A DNA stretch of 33,517 nt from Candidatus Gastranaerophilales bacterium (GTDB lineage: Bacteria > Cyanobacteriota > Vampirovibrionia > Gastranaerophilales > Gastranaerophilaceae). Location of the stretch: NCBI GenBank assembly GCA_944325825.1, contig CALVBP010000020.1, forward strand, positions 1 through 33,517. The letters are read 5' to 3'. The stretch's first letter is position 1; every line of letters starts with the position of its first letter. Below, in pieces: positions 2,197-19,474 of this stretch. The position numbers and the translations under genes are program-made. The notes beneath the pieces were generated by a model. The model saw nothing but the letters and a program-made list of their open reading frames with translations. It had not been told where the DNA came from and did not search any database.

Positions 2197-2787
2197 ATGA
2201 AACTTAAGTCTTATTTCAAAAATCTTCCTGATATGTGGAGTGCTAATATTATAGCTATGCTCGGATTTGTGAGCTTTGTTCTTGCAATTATTGCTGCATC
2301 TGTTTCATCCTATTGTTCCGCAAATGTTATTTCATTGCCGCAAACATGCAAGGATGTCTACAGGTTGATTGAAGACTGCATAATATTACACACCTTTTCA
2401 TTTCCGCTAACCTGCGCTCACGCAATTGTTCCCATTATTGTTCAATGTATATTGCTATCTAAGCAGAAACTACAAAATAATATCATATTTATCATAATGA
2501 TAGTTATTACTATTCTTTGCACAATACCGGGGTATAATTTATTTGATTTCAGCCGCGGAGGAGGCATATATATCGCATTCTTACCGATATTCGGCTCTCC
2601 TGTTACAATAATTGCATTCATTATACTTTTTATATTATTTTGTAGGGATTTGAAAAGTAGAAAACAAATACCTGACAGTAAGCATATTACAAACCCTTCT
2701 TATATCAATTTTGTAAATATCTTTTTCTGGTATGGAATTGTTGTGCTGATTCTTGAAGCTCTTCTGCTGGTATTTCTAATTGCATAA
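2197..2787 (+). CDS. Multi-spanning membrane protein, probable phage moron
   Basis: 196 aa with about five hydrophobic segments: residues about 17-37, 65-87, 95-112, 124-148 and 174-195. It ends in a membrane helix. It is the only plus-strand gene inside the minus-strand head operon, has its own extended -10 promoter, and appears to be leaderless (no SD). Those are hallmarks of a moron, a prophage cargo gene expressed from the lysogen. Superinfection exclusion or another membrane role would fit, but no domain is recognised. It runs convergent with the lipase gene, leaving 7 nt between the stops. No clear terminator is seen. Confidence 0.65.
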   Translation: MKLKSYFKNLPDMWSANIIAMLGFVSFVLAIIAASVSSYCSANVISLPQTCKDVYRLIEDCIILHTFSFPLTCAHAIVPIIVQCILLSKQKLQNNIIFIIMIVITILCTIPGYNLFDFSRGGGIYIAFLPIFGSPVTIIAFIILFILFCRDLKSRKQIPDSKHITNPSYINFVNIFFWYGIVVLILEALLLVFLIA

Positions 2788-2794
2788 AATTCCG

Positions 2795-3679
2795 CTAACT
2801 TCCATGTTTCGCGCCGCAGGTACGTACATAATCCCCGACTTTTGTCCCGTCAGAGCGAGTATATCCGCTCACCGTATATGAACCTACGCATTGCGGACCT
2901 GTTGAACTCTCTTTTGCTTTTTCGGCTTTGCTTCGCTTTTTATTAATTGTAGATTTTAAATCCCCTATCTTTTGCCGAATATTATTCTTGAAATTATCAG
3001 CCATTTCTCCGGACAAAAATTCCTTCCCTCGTGTCATATTTGGATGCAAGTTCTTACTTATCTGTTGAACTTTTTCAGGAGTAATTATTTTCCTTTGAGA
3101 CAAATCTTCCATGCTTTCTGCTTCATGGCTGTTTGCGTTTCCGGGTTTTTCAGGTACTGTATAAATTTCTCCGAGATGATTCTGCCCGTTCACCATAGTA
3201 AACATATCTTTTTCATTAACATAGTTTATTACATTATTTTCCTTTAACTTTATTCCGCTTCTGAACATGTCTCTTATCCCGTAGGCATTAAATGTCGCCG
3301 CAAAAACCCCTCTAATGCCGGAAACTATTTCACTGAGACTCCCACCCAGAGAATGACCCGTTACAGATATGTCCATCCCCGGATTCTCCATTACTACTTT
3401 ATCATAAACAGCTATGGCATCCGTTGCCTGTGAAGGAAGTCTGTTTCTTGCCATTGCTGCATCATTTTTAATGTCATTCACTTCATCTGTTCCGCGATAC
3501 GCTATTATTATATCTTTTCCGTTCGACAGAACCTCTGCATGAAAGCCATTATTCTTATTATCCACTGAATCAATTACTTTATATCCGGCGGGCGGCTTTG
3601 AGTTATCCTTGCGATACGCATATATAGAAGCTTGTTTTAATATTTCATGATACCTGGTATCTTCTTTTTTATTTTTCAT
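2795..3679 (-). CDS. Phage-encoded lipase, class 3-type alpha/beta hydrolase
   Basis: 294 aa from the ATG at 3679, chosen because AAGGAAAA lies just upstream; an in-frame ATG at 3739 has no such site. The core shows IIIAYRGTDEVNDIKND (the oxyanion-side strand of Lipase_3/Mbeg1-like enzymes), then VTGHSLGGSLSE with the nucleophile Ser in GHSLGG. A downstream Asp and His are available, but I cannot assign them by eye. Residues about 225-275 are Lys-rich and helical. The C-terminus carries a separate Cys-containing motif (YTVSGYTRSDGTKVGDYVRT), seen as a tail on many phage-associated proteins. There is no signal peptide. A lipase within a head module suggests a virion-borne enzyme acting on the host envelope, or prophage cargo; substrate unknown. 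Confidence 0.75.
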   Translation of the reverse strand: MKNKKEDTRYHEILKQASIYAYRKDNSKPPAGYKVIDSVDNKNNGFHAEVLSNGKDIIIAYRGTDEVNDIKNDAAMARNRLPSQATDAIAVYDKVVMENPGMDISVTGHSLGGSLSEIVSGIRGVFAATFNAYGIRDMFRSGIKLKENNVINYVNEKDMFTMVNGQNHLGEIYTVPEKPGNANSHEAESMEDLSQRKIITPEKVQQISKNLHPNMTRGKEFLSGEMADNFKNNIRQKIGDLKSTINKKRSKAEKAKESSTGPQCVGSYTVSGYTRSDGTKVGDYVRTCGAKHGS

Positions 3680-3727
3680 ACTTTTTCCTTTCTCATGTTC
3701 TTTCTTCTTAAAGAATATTTTCCCGGA

Positions 3728-3750
3728 CGGGCGGAGCAAAGCTCCGCCCG
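3728..3750. other. GC-rich intergenic hairpin upstream of the lipase gene
   Basis: CGGGCGGAGC (3728-3737), loop AAA, then GCTCCGCCCG (3741-3750): a perfect 10-bp stem between the decoration and lipase genes. On the transcribed (minus) strand no U-run follows it, so it is not a typical terminator. Partial termination or mRNA processing/stabilisation are possible. Confidence 0.7.
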
Positions 3751-3768
3751 CTTGGGAAGAAAGATAAA

Positions 3769-4155
3769 CTATTCAACAGGTCTTACACCAGCCCATTTTG
3801 CGACTGCAAAAATATTTCCGGTAAAACCTTCTGCGAAATCTAAATCAATAGAACCGTCAGCTTTTTCGAATCTGGATAAATCCTGAAGCTGAATGGCAGA
3901 AGTCCCTTTGGTTAATTCTATTACAATATCGCCTAACATTGAGTTAGGGTAAGCATCTCCTGCTTTTACGGTTAGCAAAGAATCTGAAGATGTTGTTTCT
4001 ATAATAATAAATAAGGAATTATTCTTATTAGAAAATGCTTCTTCTATAGTGATTCCGTTAGCCTGAGTTACGGCCTTTTTTTCAATAACAATATTAGCAA
4101 CCGATTCTGTATGGTCAAGACTCGGATACTGAACTTCAATAATATCTCTTGTCAT
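3769..4155 (-). CDS. Probable capsid decoration/head-fibre protein
   Basis: 128 aa, SD AAAGGAA, encoded 27 nt after the coat gene. The sequence is beta-rich with alternating hydrophobics (NIVIEKKAV, SLFIIIETT, DSLLTVKAGD, GDIVIELTKG) and ends in a compact beta segment (GNIFAVAKWAGVRP). The length, composition and place directly after coat match small decoration proteins that bind the outside of the capsid. The phrase 'LTVKAGDAYPNSMLGDI' resembles beta-sandwich decoration proteins of many tailed phages. No catalytic motif is visible. Function is inferred mostly from position. Confidence 0.55.
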   Translation of the reverse strand: MTRDIIEVQYPSLDHTESVANIVIEKKAVTQANGITIEEAFSNKNNSLFIIIETTSSDSLLTVKAGDAYPNSMLGDIVIELTKGTSAIQLQDLSRFEKADGSIDLDFAEGFTGNIFAVAKWAGVRPVE

Positions 4156-4182
4156 AAATTATTCCTTTCTATAATTAACTAT

Positions 4183-5073
4183 TTATACAGACAGCTTAGC
4201 AGAAACCTTAACCGTACCTAACATATCGGCTCTCGGAGCACCTACACCATAGAGACCATAACCTTTGTAGCAGGTGTTAAAGTTCTTTTCCGGAGTATAG
4301 AAAGTGGTATTCAAATCTGCTGAAATACCACCGGCAAGAGTCTTGCCTTTAACCCCAAAGAGCGGGTAGAATACACCTGTTTCAGGCTGTGCAATGTTAT
4401 TGGATACAAGAATTTCCCAGCCGCAAAGAGTTCCGATATAACCTTTAGAAATTTGAGCTTTACCGGTTTCAGTATATTTGAGTTCATCCAGTTTTCCCAA
4501 ATAGAATTGATATTCCGGAGGAATTACGCAGAGCATTGAACCATCAGTCCAGTTAGTGTGTCCTTTGCCGTCTCCTCTCTGGAATTTTGCCTGCATATAT
4601 GCAAAGATATCTTTTGCAGTATCTGCCGTAAGTACAATTGCTTCGCCTTCATCATCGAGGTAATGACCTGCTCTTGTGTAAAGATTAGCGTAAGCACTAT
4701 CTACAGCAGCAGCAAATTGTTTAATTGCATCATTAGTGTAATCTTTTGCCAAATCAACCATTTTATCCGGATTATCCTGAGAGTTTTGGAGCATTTTTTC
4801 TTCCATTTCTGAAAGTTCAAAGTGGAATGCTTTTCCTCTGTCAATTTTAACCTTGCAGGTGGAAAGAGTTGCTGCCTCGGCATCTGGCAAATCTCCGCCA
4901 TCATAATCAAACAACTGAACCATTCCGGGCATTGTTACATCAACCTCATCACCTTTGTTGATTGAATTTTTCATTTCTGAATGAGCGAGTTTACCTATTA
5001 CAAGCTCATTGTAAAAATACTTGCCAAATGCTTTAGAAAAAGCATCTGCAATCATTTGTTTTGTAGTTGTCAT
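4183..5073 (-). CDS. Major capsid (coat) protein, podovirus-type
   Basis: 296 aa from the ATG at 5073, which has GAAAGGAAAA just upstream; a longer frame to 5124 would overlap the scaffold gene and lacks such a site. Features of an HK97-fold coat are visible: an N-terminal arm, an E-loop-like stretch around VDVTMPGMVQLFDYDGG, a long spine helix (about residues 93-130, KMVDLAKDYTNDAIKQFAAA), and P/A-domain strands near the end (FNTCYKGYGLYGVGAPRADM). It follows the scaffold gene by 25 nt and precedes a decoration-like gene, the usual order. The assignment comes from sequence character plus context. It resembles capsid proteins of the P22/T7-type podoviral group more than those with a fused protease; no separate protease gene is present. 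Confidence 0.8.
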   Translation of the reverse strand: MTTTKQMIADAFSKAFGKYFYNELVIGKLAHSEMKNSINKGDEVDVTMPGMVQLFDYDGGDLPDAEAATLSTCKVKIDRGKAFHFELSEMEEKMLQNSQDNPDKMVDLAKDYTNDAIKQFAAAVDSAYANLYTRAGHYLDDEGEAIVLTADTAKDIFAYMQAKFQRGDGKGHTNWTDGSMLCVIPPEYQFYLGKLDELKYTETGKAQISKGYIGTLCGWEILVSNNIAQPETGVFYPLFGVKGKTLAGGISADLNTTFYTPEKNFNTCYKGYGLYGVGAPRADMLGTVKVSAKLSV

Positions 5074-5098
5074 CGTTTTTTCCTTTCTTTGAATTGTG

Positions 5099-5749
5099 CT
5101 AAATAAGTCTTTCCAAAAGTTCATCCACCTCTTTCGGGGTCATTTCATCAAACCTCTTTTTCGGCGGAGTAAATGATGTTTTAGAGTTTTTATCATAAGT
5201 CATTGAATCAAGAACTTTTTCGGTCTCATTTTTCGCAGAACGTTCTCTGTCATGTGCAAAGATTCTTGCTGAAACATATTCATCAAGGAGACAAACAAGC
5301 CTATCCATATCCAGATTGTTTCCCAAAACCGTATAAGCTTCTCTAAAAATCTCCTTGAATGAAGGATCTTGAAAATATTCCGGAGTGTTATACTTATCTT
5401 TGTATCTATCCAGATATTCCTGTATTTCACCTGTAGATTTTTTGAATAAGTCAAAAACTCTGCTAACTTCCCTGAGTTCAGAAACATTTTTCCTTAAAGA
5501 ACCCAGCTCAGCAGAACTCACCCCCTGACGTCTTTCAAGTTCTTGATAAGCCTTAGATAAATCTTCAACTGATTTAAATTTACCCAAAATCAAAGCCCCC
5601 GAAGGGTTTTCTGAAATAGATTCTCCTTCTTGAGGATTATGAACTTCCGGCATTAACTCTTCATCACAAACATCTGTTGAGTTTTCGGTCGCTTCCGGCT
5701 CAACATACTGTTCCGATGAAATTTGTGTTTCATTTAAAGTTTCTTCCAT
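5099..5749 (-). CDS. Capsid scaffolding protein
   Basis: 216 aa, strongly acidic N-terminus (residues 1-50, many E/D), a long coiled-coil-prone middle (DLSKAYQELERRQGVSSAEL onward) and a basic, helical C-terminus. That is the standard scaffold layout. SD GGAAAGGAAA lies upstream of the ATG. The last residues, FDEMTPKEVDELLERLI, are expected to form the coat-binding helix-turn-helix by analogy with P22 gp8, and are echoed in a separate 48-aa gene at 2009-2155. It lies between a minus-strand terminator-like hairpin (5801-5830) and the coat gene. No protease domain is fused. Confidence 0.75.
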   Translation of the reverse strand: MEETLNETQISSEQYVEPEATENSTDVCDEELMPEVHNPQEGESISENPSGALILGKFKSVEDLSKAYQELERRQGVSSAELGSLRKNVSELREVSRVFDLFKKSTGEIQEYLDRYKDKYNTPEYFQDPSFKEIFREAYTVLGNNLDMDRLVCLLDEYVSARIFAHDRERSAKNETEKVLDSMTYDKNSKTSFTPPKKRFDEMTPKEVDELLERLI

Positions 5750-5800
5750 AAAAAGTTTCCTTTCCGGGTTTCCCCATTTAATCCTTTAGTTTTCTTGTAT

Positions 5801-5830
5801 TAAAAATAAGGTGCTCAACCGAACACCTTA
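5801..5830 (-). terminator. Terminator/attenuator-like hairpin ahead of the scaffold gene
   Basis: On the minus strand CACC-type stem TAAGGTG/CACCTTA (5824-5830 with 5807-5813), extended inward by two pairs across one mismatch, is followed by UUUUUA. It would stop minus-strand transcripts arriving from the portal/cargo side. I see no good promoter between it and the scaffold start at 5749, so partial read-through or antitermination would be required. Confidence 0.6.
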
Positions 5831-5884
5831 CTAAAAATCCCCGCCAATTTTTTTAACATTTTTTAATATATCTTCAAAAAAGGC

Positions 5885-5913
5885 TTGACAAATTTTCTGC
5901 TGTTAGATATAAT
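5885..5913 (+). promoter_or_regulatory. Consensus sigma-70 promoter of a structured RNA
   Basis: TTGACA (5885-5890), 17-nt spacer, TATAAT (5908-5913): a perfect match to consensus on the plus strand, opposite to the phage genes. The predicted +1 (about G5920) is exactly the first base of a 14-bp hairpin. No plausible plus-strand protein follows. Confidence 0.8.
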
Positions 5914-6017
5914 AATATTGATACTTCCTTTGGAGCCTAGGCTTGTAGTCTAGTGTGTACCAAAGGAAGTATCGCTCTATATATTTTCAAAATTTGGACC
6001 GATTTCGTATTTGAATT

Positions 6018-6026
6018 TGTTATAAT
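6018..6026 (+). promoter_or_regulatory. Second, extended -10 promoter inside the RNA locus
   Basis: TGTTATAAT is a perfect TGnTATAAT. The box ends 6 nt before G6033, the first base of a 12-bp stem. TTGGAC at 5994-5999 is too far away (21 nt) to be a normal -35, so extended -10 recognition is assumed. Confidence 0.55.
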
Positions 6027-6032
6027 GTTATT

Positions 6033-6123
6033 GTTCGCCGTAAGTTCCGGGATAGAATGAGTTCCGTTCCCGGTGGTAACGTTTGATAAGGGTGCACCAG
6101 ACATCAAACACTTACGGACGGAC
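6033..6123 (+). ncRNA. Three-way-junction RNA element
   Basis: Closing stem 6033-6044 with 6111-6123 (GTTCGCCGTAAG with CTTACGG-A-CGGAC): 12 pairs including one G-U, and one bulged A. Hairpin 1: CCGGGA (6047-6052) with TCCCGG (6068-6073). Hairpin 2: GTTTGAT (6081-6087) with ATCAAAC (6103-6109); its loop contains the palindrome GGTGCACC (6091-6098), which could self-pair or mediate loop-loop dimerisation. The closing stem is followed by TTATTGTTGATT, a weak U-tract that could end the transcript. A TTG-initiated 68-codon minus-strand frame overlaps it but has no SD. Confidence 0.65.
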
Positions 6124-6146
6124 TTATTGTTGATTACAGCCAAATA

Positions 6147-6890
6147 CTAATCGGGGTTTTCATAATAATACAAGATTTGATTAGTATCATAATTTACTCC
6201 TATCCCATAGTGATAGGGGAAGTTATGCTTAGGCAAATTTTCGCTTTCCCGATCATTAATAACATAAAATGTAAACCCTTGAATATCTATATTCCCACTG
6301 TAATAACGGTAAGCAACCGCTTTTTCATTTTTACACTTACCATTCTTACAAACATTAATAAATTTATACTTTTTTAACTCATTATCAATAAATTTCCTAC
6401 TTGTATCAAATTTTAAATATAAATCTTCACTTCCAAAAACAGAAAAAATACTTGATTTTACTTCCGCATTTTTTGCTTCTTTAGGAATACTGCGCGGAAA
6501 ATGGAGTGTTTTTGACTGATCAACTTTACTGAGGGCTAGCTTATAATATTTTATTTGATTACATTTATCTTCTACATCACTAATTGAAAGCAAAATCAAA
6601 ATAAAGAAACAAAAAAAGATTTGTATAAATATAATTACAAAACTATTTAGTACAACTAGTAAAAACCGGTTCACAAAAGAAGCTTGCTTACGACCTCGCA
6701 CAAAAATAGCTGATATTAAAAAAATTAATAGAACCGGAAGTAAGAATATAAAACCAAATAATTTATATTTCCATTCAAAACTTATTAAACAGTATATAAA
6801 TGGCATGATACCAAGAATTAATGATATGCAGCATACTAGGAATAGCCAAGGATAATCCTGTTTAAAAATTTTTATACATTTTCTATTCAT
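6147..6890 (-). CDS. Membrane protein, candidate immunity partner of the 315-aa cargo protein
   Basis: 247 aa. Three to four N-terminal membrane helices (residues about 14-34, 40-60, 75-100 with a flanking aromatic-rich FIQIFFCFFILILLS) are followed by a roughly 140-residue soluble domain. That domain has a Cys pair in CKNGKCKN and a C-terminus GINYDTNQILYYYENPD-like (VNYDTNQILYYYENPD). The start ATG at 6890 has no SD, but TTGACA-N17-TAAATT ends 6 nt before it, so it seems leaderless and independently transcribed. It lies immediately downstream of the 315-aa gene and belongs to no known virion protein class. A membrane immunity protein is an inference from the pairing; it may equally be an unrelated moron. 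Confidence 0.55.
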   Translation of the reverse strand: MNRKCIKIFKQDYPWLFLVCCISLILGIMPFIYCLISFEWKYKLFGFIFLLPVLLIFLISAIFVRGRKQASFVNRFLLVVLNSFVIIFIQIFFCFFILILLSISDVEDKCNQIKYYKLALSKVDQSKTLHFPRSIPKEAKNAEVKSSIFSVFGSEDLYLKFDTSRKFIDNELKKYKFINVCKNGKCKNEKAVAYRYYSGNIDIQGFTFYVINDRESENLPKHNFPYHYGIGVNYDTNQILYYYENPD

Positions 6891-14654: not shown

Positions 14655-14984
14655 CTAAATTTTACATTCATTCAACCCTTCAATAATATTAATCTGAGGT
14701 TCTGTATCTGCAAACTCTGTATCTTCCATCCCTAACGCAATACGCTGTCCTTTCTGAACCTTTACCATAGAAGAAATTAAAAAATCTAAAACAGATACAG
14801 AGTTCTTTGGAATATCAAGGAATTCTATATCCGCTCTTGTCAATTCTCTTGAATACTCATCAAGAATAAAACCTAAAATAGAAAGTGTTTTATCGTAAAA
14901 TTCAATATGTTTTTGATTTACCTCGTTTTTAAGGTCCTTTATATCTTTTACTTTTACTTTTTCTTTTTCTTTATTTTTAACCAT
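14655..14984 (-). CDS. Small helical protein, possibly terminase small-subunit-like
   Basis: 109 aa, SD AAGGA. Very Lys/Glu-rich first 30 residues (KEKEKVKVKDIKDLKNEVN), then helices, ending with VQKGQRIALGMEDTEFADTE followed by PQINIIEGL. Several phage small terminases end with a helix of the type '..Q..A.GL', then an acidic segment and a short beta strand of this kind, which is the basis for the suggestion. Against it: no large terminase follows, and the next gene downstream is a host-type M48 protease. It is separated from the upstream zinc-ribbon gene by a terminator (15007-15064). Treat the function as unknown with a phage flavour. Confidence 0.45.
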   Translation of the reverse strand: MVKNKEKEKVKVKDIKDLKNEVNQKHIEFYDKTLSILGFILDEYSRELTRADIEFLDIPKNSVSVLDFLISSMVKVQKGQRIALGMEDTEFADTEPQINIIEGLNECKI

Positions 14985-15076: not shown

Positions 15077-15448
15077 TTATATCAATTTGATTAATTCTTT
15101 ATTCCCATAAAAATCGCAGGCATACTGCTTAAGTTTTTCCTTACCGTTAATTCTGATAACTTTATTAATCCCGTATTTCCAGCCGTAAGGCTTTGTTTTA
15201 AACCTCAAGTAGTTACACTCTTTCATTGAGTAGACAATTTCTTTGCTACATTTGAGCATCAAGTCATTTGCCTCTATTCCGGCAAGGGATATTCGATTAA
15301 TAACCCCGTCAAAGCGGTATTCGATAAGCTCTGCAACAGGTTTACCGCATATCGGGCAAAAACCTATTGAAAGTTTCCTTGAATTATATAAATCATTTTC
15401 GGATAAATAATAAATATCATCCGCTTTAAACTTACAGCAATGGCGCAC
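15077..15448 (-). CDS. Small zinc-ribbon protein of unknown function
   Basis: 123 aa from a GTG at 15448, chosen because GGAAGGAGG ends 6 nt upstream; a longer frame to 15529 would start with TTG and lacks an SD. The protein opens with RHCCKF and continues to FCPICGKPVAELIEY, giving two Cys pairs about 30 residues apart, a likely zinc ribbon. The C-terminal half is basic (YLRFKTKPYGWKYGINKVIR), suggesting nucleic-acid or protein binding. Compact Cys4 proteins of this sort are common in phages. It is the first gene of its transcript and has its own terminator. No family recognised. Confidence 0.6.
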   Translation of the reverse strand: MRHCCKFKADDIYYLSENDLYNSRKLSIGFCPICGKPVAELIEYRFDGVINRISLAGIEANDLMLKCSKEIVYSMKECNYLRFKTKPYGWKYGINKVIRINGKEKLKQYACDFYGNKELIKLI

Positions 15449-15727
15449 AACAAACCTCCTTCCGGCATACCAATCCGGATTAATAAATAATAATTGACAT
15501 AAAAAATAAGCCTGTATATTAACAAGCAAAATGATAATAGTATTCCTTATACCCGGGGATGATTTCTCCTACGCAGTTTCCTTTGTTTTGAAATCGAGTA
15601 CAGATATATAATACAATATTTTCAATTTTCACCTAAGGATTGTAACAACTTTTTTACATCTTAACCCAGAATATAATATTCATAATATTTTTGAGGTAAA
15701 ATTAAAGCTGAAAGAGAGGTATAAAGC

Positions 15728-16693
15728 ATGAAAGCTATTGTTTTTGATAACGGATTAAAATTAGATACAAATTATCCCAAACCGGTACCGCAAAAGGGAG
15801 AAGCTTTAATAAGGGTAACTCTTGCCGGAATTTGTAATACTGATTACGAAATTACAAAAGGATATATGGGTTATAAAGGTATTTTAGGACATGAATTTGT
15901 CGGAGTAGTAGAAGATGTTAACGGAGAAGATAAATCCCTTGTTGGCAAAAGAGTTGTTGCGGAAATAAGCTACGGCTGCAATGACCCTGATTGTGAATGG
16001 TGTGCAGTAAAAAACTACCGCCACTGTCCGAACAGACATACTCTCGGAATCTGGAGGAAAGACGGCTGTTTCGCAGAATATATGACCATGCCTGTTAACG
16101 TTTTGTTTGAAGTTCCCGATAACGTAACAGACGAACAGGCAGTTTTTGTAGAGCCGCTGGCTGCAGCTTGCGAGATATCAGAACAATTACATATTGAGCC
16201 AATGAAAAAAGTCATCGTTTTAGGAGACGGAAAACTCGGTCTTACAACAGCTCTAACCCTGAACGCATTAAATCTGGATGTTCTTTTAGTCGGCAAACAT
16301 CAAAACAAACTTGATATTGCAAAAGCTCAGGGTGTAAAAACCGAACTTTTAAATTCGTTTACCCCTGAAAAAATATACGATGTCGTAGTAGAAGCAACAG
16401 GAACTGCCTCCGGATTTGAGACCTCTATGGCATTAACCAAACCGAGAGGCGTACTCGTCTTAAAAAGCACTGTGGCTTCGGGCAAAGAACTAAACCTCGC
16501 CCCGATTGTTATAGACGAAATAACCGTTCTGGGCTCACGCTGCGGTCAATTCCCGCCTGCATTAAGACTCCTTAAAAATAACAGAATAAATTTCAAACCT
16601 TTTATTACAAAAATCTATTCTATTGATGAAGCTCTGGAAGCTTTTGAAGCCAATAAAGCAAAAGAAAGTCTAAAAATTCTTATTAAAATGTAA
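15728..16693 (+). CDS. Zinc-dependent MDR alcohol/polyol dehydrogenase
   Basis: 321 aa, SD GAGAGG. Medium-chain dehydrogenase layout: GroES-like catalytic domain, then a Rossmann fold. The catalytic zinc ligand Cys is in LAGICNTDYE and the His-Glu pair in GHEFVG. A structural zinc lobe with C-x4-C-x2-C-x7-C is CNDPDCEWCAVKNYRHC (about residues 84-100). The NAD(P) loop VIVLGDGKLGL fits GxGxxG with one variation (GDGKLG). It would oxidise a secondary alcohol or polyol to a ketone with NAD(P)+; sorbitol/threonine-type substrates are conceivable but undetermined. At 321 aa it is slightly shorter than typical members (about 340-350). Single-gene unit; it converges on the RelA-like operon across a shared hairpin. 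Confidence 0.85.
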   Translation: MKAIVFDNGLKLDTNYPKPVPQKGEALIRVTLAGICNTDYEITKGYMGYKGILGHEFVGVVEDVNGEDKSLVGKRVVAEISYGCNDPDCEWCAVKNYRHCPNRHTLGIWRKDGCFAEYMTMPVNVLFEVPDNVTDEQAVFVEPLAAACEISEQLHIEPMKKVIVLGDGKLGLTTALTLNALNLDVLLVGKHQNKLDIAKAQGVKTELLNSFTPEKIYDVVVEATGTASGFETSMALTKPRGVLVLKSTVASGKELNLAPIVIDEITVLGSRCGQFPPALRLLKNNRINFKPFITKIYSIDEALEAFEANKAKESLKILIKM

Positions 16694-16744: not shown

Positions 16745-17155
16745 CTAACCTTTTAACGATTCGGAAAGTTGCTGAATCGTTTTTACAATCTCATTCTTAA
16801 AATTTTTATCATTCATATATCTCAAAATAGCATCTCTATTACCGGACATCAGCATAACTGAAGCATCAGTATTCAAACTGGGATGAAGAACTGATAGCAA
16901 AAGAAGTGCCCGTCCGTCTAAGTTTTCATCTCTTTCAACACAAAGAGCTGCGGCTCTGCCATAAAAATCTTTATTTAAATAAATATCTTCAGCAAAATTT
17001 CTAAAGTAACCTGTATCATGAACTTCCCGTTCAATACGTTCTTTCATCTTTGAAATCATACTGTCCAACTGTTGAGGAAAGGGTATTCTACTGGGTTCCT
17101 TGGGTCTCATTAATATATTCCTATTCTTAATTTTTATCAACTCATATTTTACCAT
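16745..17155 (-). CDS. Unknown protein co-transcribed with the RelA/SpoT-like gene
   Basis: 136 aa, with AGGGA ahead of ATG; the start lies 12 nt after the stop of the RelA/SpoT-like gene, so the two are almost certainly one operon. Mixed helical protein, no membrane helix. Visible features are a Pro-rich N-terminus (MRPKEPSRIPFPQQLDSM), a helix-rich middle (ERIEREVHDTGYFRNFAEDI), and a C-terminal helical pair. No family recognised. Given the operon, it could regulate or neutralise the upstream nucleotide transferase, but nothing in its own sequence shows that. A terminator follows directly. Confidence 0.65.
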   Translation of the reverse strand: MVKYELIKIKNRNILMRPKEPSRIPFPQQLDSMISKMKERIEREVHDTGYFRNFAEDIYLNKDFYGRAAALCVERDENLDGRALLLLSVLHPSLNTDASVMLMSGNRDAILRYMNDKNFKNEIVKTIQQLSESLKG

Positions 17156-17167
17156 ATCTATTCCCTA

Positions 17168-18478
17168 TCAGACAACCGCTGTAAAATACGGCTGAAAATC
17201 TTTTCCCAATTCCTTAAGCATTATTTCGTTTTTATCATGCAGCATTCTCAAGCTGTCGTCTGATAATATTTGATTAAATTTTTCAGGCAGTTTCGGTTTT
17301 ACCGCCGGTAAACCCAGCTCAAGCCTATTATAGTAATTATAACATTTTTCAAGATACAAATTATATTCCCCGTAATCATCTTTGGAGAGTTTTGATATTT
17401 CTTCTTTAAAGTCATCAAATAAACAGCCGAGAGTATTTTTCCCCTCCCGCATATCATAGGCAATATGTTCATATTCTGCAAATCTGTTCGTTAATTCTCC
17501 TCTGAACTGAAGCTCACCTAAAGCTCCGTTTGAATGAATTATGTTAGCCTGTGCCGTTCTGTATCCCGAAGCTTTAAGTGCAAAATCTTTTATTTCATCT
17601 TTTGTATAACCCGTATTCGGGAAGCGGTTATAATCCGCTAAATCAGGCCGTGAATGTATAACAATTTTTCCCTCTGTTGCTTTTCTTAAAGCCTGAATTT
17701 GTCTGCCGCTAAATTCCGGCAGTCCGTTGAACCCCCTATAATTATTAATCAAAGTTATATCCATAGGTTCTATGTTTTCTTTTTTGAGTCTGTTAATTAA
17801 ATCATCGGACAAAAGGCCTTTTGCTTTAATATCCTCAATAGTTAACCCTTCTTTTATCATGCGACTTTTAGTAATAGAAAGAAGAAGGTTATCCACAACA
17901 GGCTGGGAACGTTTTTCTATTAAAGGTTGAGCAAATTTTTCAAACAAAGGAAACGCTTCTATTTCCTGTTCAGGTGTAAGTTTTTGCCCGTAAATATATT
18001 TTTGTAATAACACTTTCTGGTCAGAAGTTAAAGGTGCATTATTAATTTTTACATCATCAATCATTTGTGCTATTTCTTTTTTACCCATAGGGTTAAGCGA
18101 TTTTGAAATCACCCTTGAGCCAATTCCGTCAAGAACAAAATTCTGCGCTGTTTCAAAAGAAGTAATTTCACCCTCTTTTACACCTCGTACAATTTTTGAA
18201 TGAATTGACGGCACTCCTTTAGCACGATTTTGAATGTCGATAACTGTTCTAAGTTTAGAAAACACGTTATCAACTTGCTGTTTAGCAGCTTCAAACTTCT
18301 TCATTAAATCTATAGCAATTTGAACGGCTGCAGTACCTAATTCTGCTTCCAAAACATTTTCGGTTTTTCCGCTGATATTAAGACAAGTATCATTTACCCG
18401 TAACTTTGAAAAATTTACAGGCACACCGATTCCCGGTTTCGAAAAAAATGTTCTATAAATTACTTGAGGTACTTTCAC
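17168..18478 (-). CDS. Divergent RelA/SpoT-type nucleotide pyrophosphotransferase-like protein with a large insertion
   Basis: 436 aa from the GTG at 18478, 5 nt after AGGAG; a TTG one codon earlier is too close to the SD. RelA/SpoT synthetase landmarks appear in order. KGVPSIHSKIVRG (about residues 88-99) aligns with the substrate-binding 'GRpKH.YSIyrKm'. LDGIGSRVI (116-124) matches 'yDliGiRvi' with the metal-binding Asp. ASGYRTAQANIIH (303-315) matches 'nGYqs.H..v'. GELQFRGEL (321-329) matches 'vEvQIRT', keeping the catalytic Glu. AEYEHIAYD (334-342) matches 'AEyg.AahW'. Between the Asp and Tyr motifs lie about 180 residues instead of about 40. No HD hydrolase or TGS/ACT domain. It may make (p)ppGpp or modify another acceptor, as toxSAS enzymes do. 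Confidence 0.65.
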   Translation of the reverse strand: MKVPQVIYRTFFSKPGIGVPVNFSKLRVNDTCLNISGKTENVLEAELGTAAVQIAIDLMKKFEAAKQQVDNVFSKLRTVIDIQNRAKGVPSIHSKIVRGVKEGEITSFETAQNFVLDGIGSRVISKSLNPMGKKEIAQMIDDVKINNAPLTSDQKVLLQKYIYGQKLTPEQEIEAFPLFEKFAQPLIEKRSQPVVDNLLLSITKSRMIKEGLTIEDIKAKGLLSDDLINRLKKENIEPMDITLINNYRGFNGLPEFSGRQIQALRKATEGKIVIHSRPDLADYNRFPNTGYTKDEIKDFALKASGYRTAQANIIHSNGALGELQFRGELTNRFAEYEHIAYDMREGKNTLGCLFDDFKEEISKLSKDDYGEYNLYLEKCYNYYNRLELGLPAVKPKLPEKFNQILSDDSLRMLHDKNEIMLKELGKDFQPYFTAVV

Positions 18479-18564
18479 CAAAACTCCTGATATTTAATCC
18501 CCTATATATTAATAAAGTTTTTTTGACTTTGTCAATTGCCTAAAGTATTAATTTTTATAAAGAC

Positions 18565-18619: not shown

Positions 18620-19474
18620 TTAAACAGTTGCAGGTTTTTTCTGTTGATTAGCTCCCGGAATTGCATGCCAGTTTGCGGCCATGATTTTCTTAAACGATTT
18701 GAGAGCTGTATCTTCAAGTTCACCAAGCTCTTCCGCTTCCATAATAAGTTCTCTTAGCGGAAGCAGCGCCCTCTGGTCTCTTAGAACACCCAGGGCTGCA
18801 GCAGCACCTGCTCTTACAAGGTCATTTTCAGAACGGTTTTTCATAACATCAATTAATGCCGGAACCGCTTTAGTATCGTTTAATTTACCTAAAGAAGTTA
18901 CCGCATAAATTCTAACATTAACCCATTCGTCATATAACATATTGATAATCTTATCAACACATTTTTTATTTCCGATTTCACCTAATGCACGTGTTGCATC
19001 ACAACGAACGTTCACTTTTTCATGGTCTAAAGATTTCATCAAAGCATCTGTTGCGACATCTCCGATTTCAATTAAAGCATCTGTAGCTGTTATACAAACC
19101 TGAGAATTTTCATCATTTAAAGCTTCAACAAGAGGCTCTACAACAATCTTTCCGCCCAAACGTCCCAATGCACGAGCAGCACGAACACGAACATCGACAT
19201 TTCTGTCTTCTCTTAATGATTGAATTAAATGTTCAGTTGCTTTTGAGTCCCCGAGTTCACCGAGGGCACGAGCTGCGTATAAGCGAACAGAACCATTTTT
19301 ATCATTTTTCAATACGTCAATTAACGGTTCGACAGCTTTGGAATCACCCATTTCGCCTAAAACACGAGCAGCATTATATCTAACTTTTTCCGAACTTGAT
19401 GTCATTAAATCATTTATTAATTCCGAAAAAGTTTTCTTTACTTGTTTCTTTTTGCTGTTCACAGTAATTGCCAT
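18620..19474 (-). CDS. HEAT-repeat protein (PBS-lyase/CpcE-type repeats)
   Basis: 284 aa with SD GGAGGT. After a basic N-terminus (VNSKKKQVKKTF) the whole chain is seven to eight HEAT repeats of about 31 residues. Each carries the pattern 'VR..AARALGE[LM]GD..AVEPLI.AL.D', for example VRYNAARVLGEMGDSKAVEP and VRLYAARALGELGDSKATEH. This is the PBS-lyase HEAT-like repeat found in phycobilin lyases CpcE/F and in many bacterial scaffold proteins. Vampirovibrionia lack phycobilisomes, so a protein-binding scaffold is more likely than a lyase; nothing in the sequence shows a bilin site. Monocistronic with its own terminator. Confidence 0.85.
   Translation of the reverse strand: MAITVNSKKKQVKKTFSELINDLMTSSSEKVRYNAARVLGEMGDSKAVEPLIDVLKNDKNGSVRLYAARALGELGDSKATEHLIQSLREDRNVDVRVRAARALGRLGGKIVVEPLVEALNDENSQVCITATDALIEIGDVATDALMKSLDHEKVNVRCDATRALGEIGNKKCVDKIINMLYDEWVNVRIYAVTSLGKLNDTKAVPALIDVMKNRSENDLVRAGAAAALGVLRDQRALLPLRELIMEAEELGELEDTALKSFKKIMAANWHAIPGANQQKKPATV

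Follow-up and report, generated by a model that had tools for sequence, protein, structure and literature searches.

The window, by which I mean the whole stretch of 33,517 nucleotides analysed here, contains on its minus strand an open reading frame for a putative RelA-like pyrophosphotransferase, which has AGGAG five bases 5' of its GTG start and is followed by a small partner gene (Table 1). On either side lie a HEAT-repeat gene and a gene for a zinc alcohol-dehydrogenase-like protein (ADH). A sequence-only reading of this stretch had listed the core motifs PSIHSKI, LDGIGSRVI, SGYRTAQANI, GELQFRG and AEYEHIAYD, and all five are indeed present, in this order, in the minus-strand frame. Its claims that the metal-binding Asp and the catalytic Glu are kept, and that the HD and regulatory domains are absent, hold as well: the Asp is found in every row of an alignment of relatives and the Glu in all rows but one, and HD, TGS and ACT domains were undetected in a Pfam scan, so that the protein does not have the architecture of a long RSH enzyme. 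No N-terminal trafficking domain or secretion signal was recognised. The partner gene had been absent from that reading. The RelA-like gene is under purifying constraint, with dN/dS of 0.10-0.13 in the four comparisons with a usable dS (a fifth gave none). The host genome (1.85 Mb in 57 contigs) also encodes a normal long RelA on contig C40, which scores 154 bits to PF04607.

Table 1. Positions of the features discussed in the text; coordinates are those of the window unless a contig or locus is named.
Feature	Position	Strand	Remarks
Putative RelA-like pyrophosphotransferase CDS, 436 aa	17168..18478	-	GTG start, TGA stop; TTG at 18481 is an alternative start
Predicted ATP (pyrophosphate donor) motif R85, K87, S91, K95, R98	18185..18226	-	FaRel2 spacing and conservation
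Asp117, predicted Mg-binding Asp (LDGIGSR)	18128..18130	-	Invariant, 31/31
Insertion 1, about residues 129-240	17759..18094	-	About 95 residues longer than the RelA segment; predicted mostly helical; clade-specific
Asn246-Tyr247 (NNYRG)	17738..17743	-	Counterpart of the YwaC KDY in the alignment
Insertion 2, residues 248-304, expanded acceptor (G-) loop	17567..17737	-	Exceeds the RelA loop by about 50 residues; family-wide
Tyr306, predicted acceptor-base-stacking Tyr (SGYRTAQ)	17561..17563	-	Invariant, 31/31
Glu322, predicted catalytic Glu (GELQFRG)	17513..17515	-	30/31 rows; Lys in L048
Partner gene, 136 aa, predicted cognate immunity/antitoxin	16745..17155	-	Starts 12 bases past the RelA-like stop codon
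HEAT-repeat gene	18620..19474	-	Flank and site marker outside the system; Pfam, locus comparison
Zinc alcohol-dehydrogenase-like gene	15728..16693	+	Convergent flank and site marker outside the system; Pfam, locus comparison
Second copy in the same genome (L115)	2494-6090, contig C4		Weak RelA-like match near the end of a 1198-aa protein
Very diverged partner homologue after the L115 copy	6091-6486, contig C4		E 0.001; directly adjacent
RelA-like gene of L058	L058:5599-6246		Large in-frame internal deletion removing the acceptor loop and the catalytic Glu
Kinase-like domain	L180:1553-2542; L181:8541-9530; L185 residues 1490-1768 of the large frame		Basis: sequence reading

As judged from the alignments, the window domain has a complete ATP donor site together with the Mg-binding Asp, the acceptor Tyr and the catalytic Glu, the donor pattern being R-x-K-x3-S-x3-K-x2-R and the Glu lying in ExQxR. 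The spacing of R85, K87, S91, K95 and R98 is identical to that of R64, K66, S70, K74 and R77 in FaRel2, which hold ATP, and D117 and Y306 correspond to D90 and the acceptor Tyr Y128 of the same protein (PMC11782079). All 31 aligned relatives keep R85, K87, S91, D117, R122, N246, Y247, Y306, Q324, H338, K347 and Y375. In 32 further aligned copies, among which some of the genomes of the first alignment are repeated, the catalytic position is occupied by Glu in 31 and by Lys in one, and the constant residues are R, K, D, R, N, Y, G, Y, Q, Q and R.

That this domain belongs to the RelA/SpoT synthetase superfamily, as the sequence-only reading had it, is well supported by the sequence comparisons, because of a chain of relatives and not because of the window sequence alone. 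In single-sequence searches of Pfam, NCBIfam and the PDB the window protein remained unmatched by RelA_SpoT (PF04607 up to E 1). I made three alignments: A1, with 22 full-length or near-full-length standalone sequences; A2, with 31 sequences including domains within large proteins; and A4, with the four minimal relatives L059, L108, L063 and L076. The search for a RelA/SpoT fold succeeded at the family level, where 9s6k (2.5e-4), 6fgk, which is YwaC (3.8e-4), and 8vx3 (2.6e-3) head the PDB matches of the A2 profile, followed by 8acu and 7oiw, all five being GTP pyrophosphokinases or a small alarmone synthetase (SAS); the A1 profile alone had no RSH or synthetase among its PDB matches. The R-K-S-K/Asp block and the GY-to-ExQxR block are collinear in the two A2-PDB alignments displayed, and the lower-scoring rows include unrelated repeat proteins. 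PF04607 is matched by seven of the 31 A2 members (best 4.1e-8), A1 aligns with A4 over 246 columns (E 9e-43), and of the three A4 members scanned, which did not include L076, L059 and L108 exceed the PF04607 cut-off of 27 bits (32.6 and 30.3 bits, respectively) and L063 stays below it. With hhalign, only the C-terminal motif block of the family was aligned to 11 housekeeping RelA proteins, with low probabilities of 1.7, 36.8 and 12.2. An AlphaFold2 model of the RelA-like protein, built with five close sequences, has a mean pLDDT of 50.4, with the catalytic part at low confidence and mainly the helical insertion well predicted; fold searches with this low-confidence model gave nothing at E<=0.001 in Foldseek and no Z of at least 5 in VIA-align, and solved synthetases are absent from both lists.

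The synthetase core differs most from that of housekeeping enzymes in the distance between Asp and acceptor Tyr, which is 189 residues in the window protein and 44 in each of the 29 housekeeping RelA proteins for which it was measured (the searched motif was absent from a 30th). The sequence-only reading had noticed this enlargement and ascribed it to a single insertion of roughly 180 residues. The enlargement stands and the single insertion does not: since the distance splits at the NY motif into 130 + 59 residues in the window protein, compared with 35 + 9 in the RelA of its own genome, two insertions at two sites are present. The first separates the Asp strand from the NY motif and is mostly clade-specific, with a local pLDDT of mostly 60-93 in a model that is otherwise mostly unreliable; the second lies in the acceptor loop (G-loop as defined in PMC11782079), immediately before Tyr306. 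Both are graded in size by clade. Within A2 the Asp-Tyr distance is 80-82 residues in L076, L059 and L063, 101-177 in 15 other domain copies and 183-202 in 13 standalone copies, so that a minimal relative spans about 81 residues in all.

The acceptor Tyr is followed by T/A-x-Q, which is neither the guanosine-type S-x-H nor the G-x-N of the Apk2 toxins (PMC12226406). This motif is not taken here as a guide to the acceptor, because swapping the residues after the Tyr gave no conversion of specificity (PMC12226406). The enlargement of the acceptor loop together with the loss of the guanosine-type SxH suggests an acceptor other than GTP or GDP, which could be an adenosine nucleotide or the 3' end of an RNA. 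With the motif definitions of PMC12226406, the syn2 and syn4 Arg of the window protein are as in (p)ppGpp synthetases.

The partner gene directly follows the standalone RelA-like gene in all 23 loci, one of which has an internally deleted RelA-like gene (L058). It is kept in L045, L055 and L056, where the HEAT and ADH flanks were not found in the 7-11 kb fetched; L054 and L057 are likewise without these flanks, in fetched stretches of less than 4 kb. Strong partner matches are found in exactly those 23 of 97 related genomes that have the standalone orthologue, and the other 74 give none at E<=1e-3 and three weak ones (0.002-0.008). The association extends beyond the standalone form: the partner profile detects a homologue downstream of most large carrier proteins (E 2e-14 to 6e-6), but none downstream of L063 or L076; in this search L059 stops at a contig end and L073 and L075 are incomplete. 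Over the 287 genomes of the window's family the partner profile matches 160 and the domain profile 212. Among the best 150 domain copies, 136 are followed on their own strand and contig by a partner, 101 of them within 300 bp (median gap 88 bp) and 25 at a distance of at least 2 kb, where those inspected belong to domains internal to long frames; for the remaining 14, some of them at contig breaks, no partner was detected. The partner profile found no relative among solved structures, antitoxins included (best E 0.1), nor did it point consistently to any one Pfam family, and the AlphaFold2 model of the partner has a pLDDT of 44, at which its fold is not comparable to the pZFD, Tis1-like or SAH antitoxins. 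A short N-terminal motif, NINFxGxKP, recurs in partners such as L060, L061, L065 and L070 and is possibly a sorting signal. A similar stretch, FGAKP, lies close to the start of unrelated proteins that are encoded downstream of the HEAT gene (L130, L131).

The flanking genes made it possible to recognise sites without the cassette. The HEAT gene is present in all 22 same-genus genomes searched; six have an empty site with a HEAT-ADH gap of 60-75 bp and nothing inside, and the other 16 have another gene after HEAT or a contig end. Over a larger set, the standalone cassette occurs in 23 of 58 same-genus genomes. Further along the window, two small conserved genes (15077-15529 and 14655-14984) without Pfam or NCBIfam assignment stay beside the ADH gene in many relatives, and the product of the former has a Cys-x2-Cys pair.

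The 212 family genomes with a domain match carry it mostly within very large proteins. In the draw of related genomes 44 of 97 have a match, five of these from other families of the order (G061, G063, G068, G069, G072), and in a draw of 339 genomes over the phylum all 112 matching genomes belong to the window's family; as far as searched, the domain family is restricted to the window's order. Among the carriers scanned, some match LysM, ADP-ribosyltransferase and, weakly, calpain-like domains; hydrophobic stretches rich in Gly and Ala occur in others, as in the 1198-aa protein with the second copy in the window's own genome. These large proteins are probably exported. An in-frame TAG near the match in six genomes of one genus raised the thought of stop-codon recoding, but these proved to be ordinary terminal stops.

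Partner homologues are not confined to RelA-like neighbours. L180 and L181 are carriers without a RelA-like domain that end in a kinase-like domain, unrecognised by Pfam in these and in L185 and identified by reading the sequence, and are followed by a partner homologue; one further homologue is an orphan. Because of L180, L181 and the orphan, the partner family cannot be called exclusive to RelA. In L185 the RelA-like and the kinase-like domain occur in one protein, which is followed by two tandem partner genes. A tree of 49 partners places one of these with the partners of kinase-like carriers (support 98/95 and 97/89), and the other within the RelA-linked carrier partners (94/90), beside L182 (100/99), whose carrier lies outside this check. 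As the two partners of L185 sort by domain type, I call the partner domain-specific, a case that rests on this one two-domain carrier: judged by sequence relationships, the partner family tracks the effector domain and not the large carrier proteins. A chaperone serving the carriers in general is weakened by the same observation of one partner per domain. The pattern would fit matched toxin and immunity genes, and a domain-specific chaperone would give the same.

Taken together, the explanation I consider probable is that of a RelA/SpoT-fold pyrophosphotransferase toxin domain with the 136-aa partner as its cognate neutralising (immunity or antitoxin) protein. A toxin-antidote pair is preferred to an ordinary stress enzyme because a remodelled core is coupled to an antidote-like small gene. 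The predicted enzyme would transfer the beta,gamma-pyrophosphate of ATP to the 3'-hydroxyl of an acceptor nucleotide or RNA, this transfer would halt the growth of the cell in which it takes place, and the partner would neutralise the toxin by direct binding. The idea of the sequence-only reading that the enzyme could be toxSAS-like gains support, as the linked small gene behaves, by its distribution, like a cognate neutraliser. The family also shows the pattern of polymorphic toxins, with one domain on different carriers and an immunity-type gene next to it. The copy in the window is of the standalone cassette type and may act in its own cell or leave it by an unrecognised export route.

Alternatively, the pair may be a classical cytoplasmic toxin-antitoxin module such as FaRel2 or CapRel, possibly directed against phages. 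This reading and the toxin-immunity one overlap, differing only in the site of toxin action, and I regard the former as possible but not probable. The two-gene form of the cassette, its cassette-like gain or loss and the lack of a recognised export signal are consistent with it, and so is the intact partner of L058 beside a RelA-like gene that is without most of its C-terminal half. However, G236 has a similarly short RelA-like form with no partner detected, and I therefore treat the L058 deletion as neutral evidence. Most family members, moreover, are payloads of very large proteins, and each PADLOC family matched at most one of the 31 members, the best match having E 0.0028 to an unrelated family. 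Relatives were also not found among viral contigs (IMG/VR), among phages searched with a carrier-type domain or among plasmids searched with a minimal relative; a phage or plasmid origin was set aside on this ground, with which carriage by a prophage remains compatible.

It is rather unlikely that the partner is instead a secretion or folding chaperone for the RelA-like (or kinase-like) domain of an effector exported against other bacteria or a host. The partner is small, lies closely adjacent and is associated with very large multidomain carriers, and each of the two effector types has its own partner subtype. Yet the carrier-less 436-aa form has a partner in all of its loci. Class I type III chaperones are usually acidic, and the six partners measured, with a pI of 6.6-9.0, are not consistently so. 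A small downstream gene is also the usual immunity arrangement (PMC12691689).

A further alternative is a specialised small alarmone synthetase with a housekeeping role, whose (p)ppGpp-type signals would serve its own cell and whose regulatory subunit would be the small partner. The intact catalytic residues under purifying constraint and the syn2 and syn4 Arg agree with this reading, but it is improbable: the genome already has a full-length RelA, the cassette is patchy and has empty sites, the RelA-like domain is elsewhere fused in proteins with toxin domains, and its guanosine signature is replaced.

RelA-like domains are established as exported toxins and as toxin-antitoxin modules (PMC12691689, PMC3482391, PMC11559606, PMC9712102), and the novelty here lies in the partner family, in the lineage and in an acceptor side that is rebuilt. 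With the toxSAS proteins (FaRel2, CapRel, PhRel, FaRel) the window protein shares a synthetase domain without hydrolase and a dedicated small neighbour gene, and with FaRel2 also the spacing of the donor residues, but its acceptor loop and the preceding segment are enlarged and its partner has no sequence similarity to any solved antitoxin. Tas1/Apk1, Apk2 (MuF) and SaEAS are likewise RelA-like toxin payloads of modular proteins, and several of their lineages have an immunity gene downstream (PMC12691689); their carriers differ from those of the window's family. The RelA/SpoT-like domains of polymorphic toxins are of the same fold class and toxin use, but are carried there by ESX/T7SS, T3SS and MuF proteins, whereas the window's family is, as searched, order-restricted (PMC3482391). 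Housekeeping long RelA/SpoT proteins have the same order of synthetase motifs, and differ by their HD, TGS and ACT domains and their short Asp-Tyr distance. The main text of PMC12691689 contains no occurrence of Melainabacteria, Cyanobacteri or insertion, and by title and abstract the literature matches listed, which mostly exclude subscription papers, hold no description of this clade.

A bolder version, which I regard as possible but not probable, is that of an undescribed Gastranaerophilales clade of RelA-fold toxins, in which the helical insertion and the rebuilt loop would direct pyrophosphate transfer towards an acceptor of a new kind, either the 3' end of an RNA or a non-guanosine nucleotide, and of a new immunity superfamily whose paralogues would neutralise a chemically unrelated, kinase-like toxin. 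A rebuilt acceptor loop such as this one should determine which substrate is chosen, and the two effector domains with matched partner subtypes offer a natural test of immunity following its toxin. The clade is mostly missed by Pfam and abundant in a little-studied gut lineage, and if the toxin-immunity reading is confirmed, it would point to widespread competition by toxins and immunity proteins in Gastranaerophilales.
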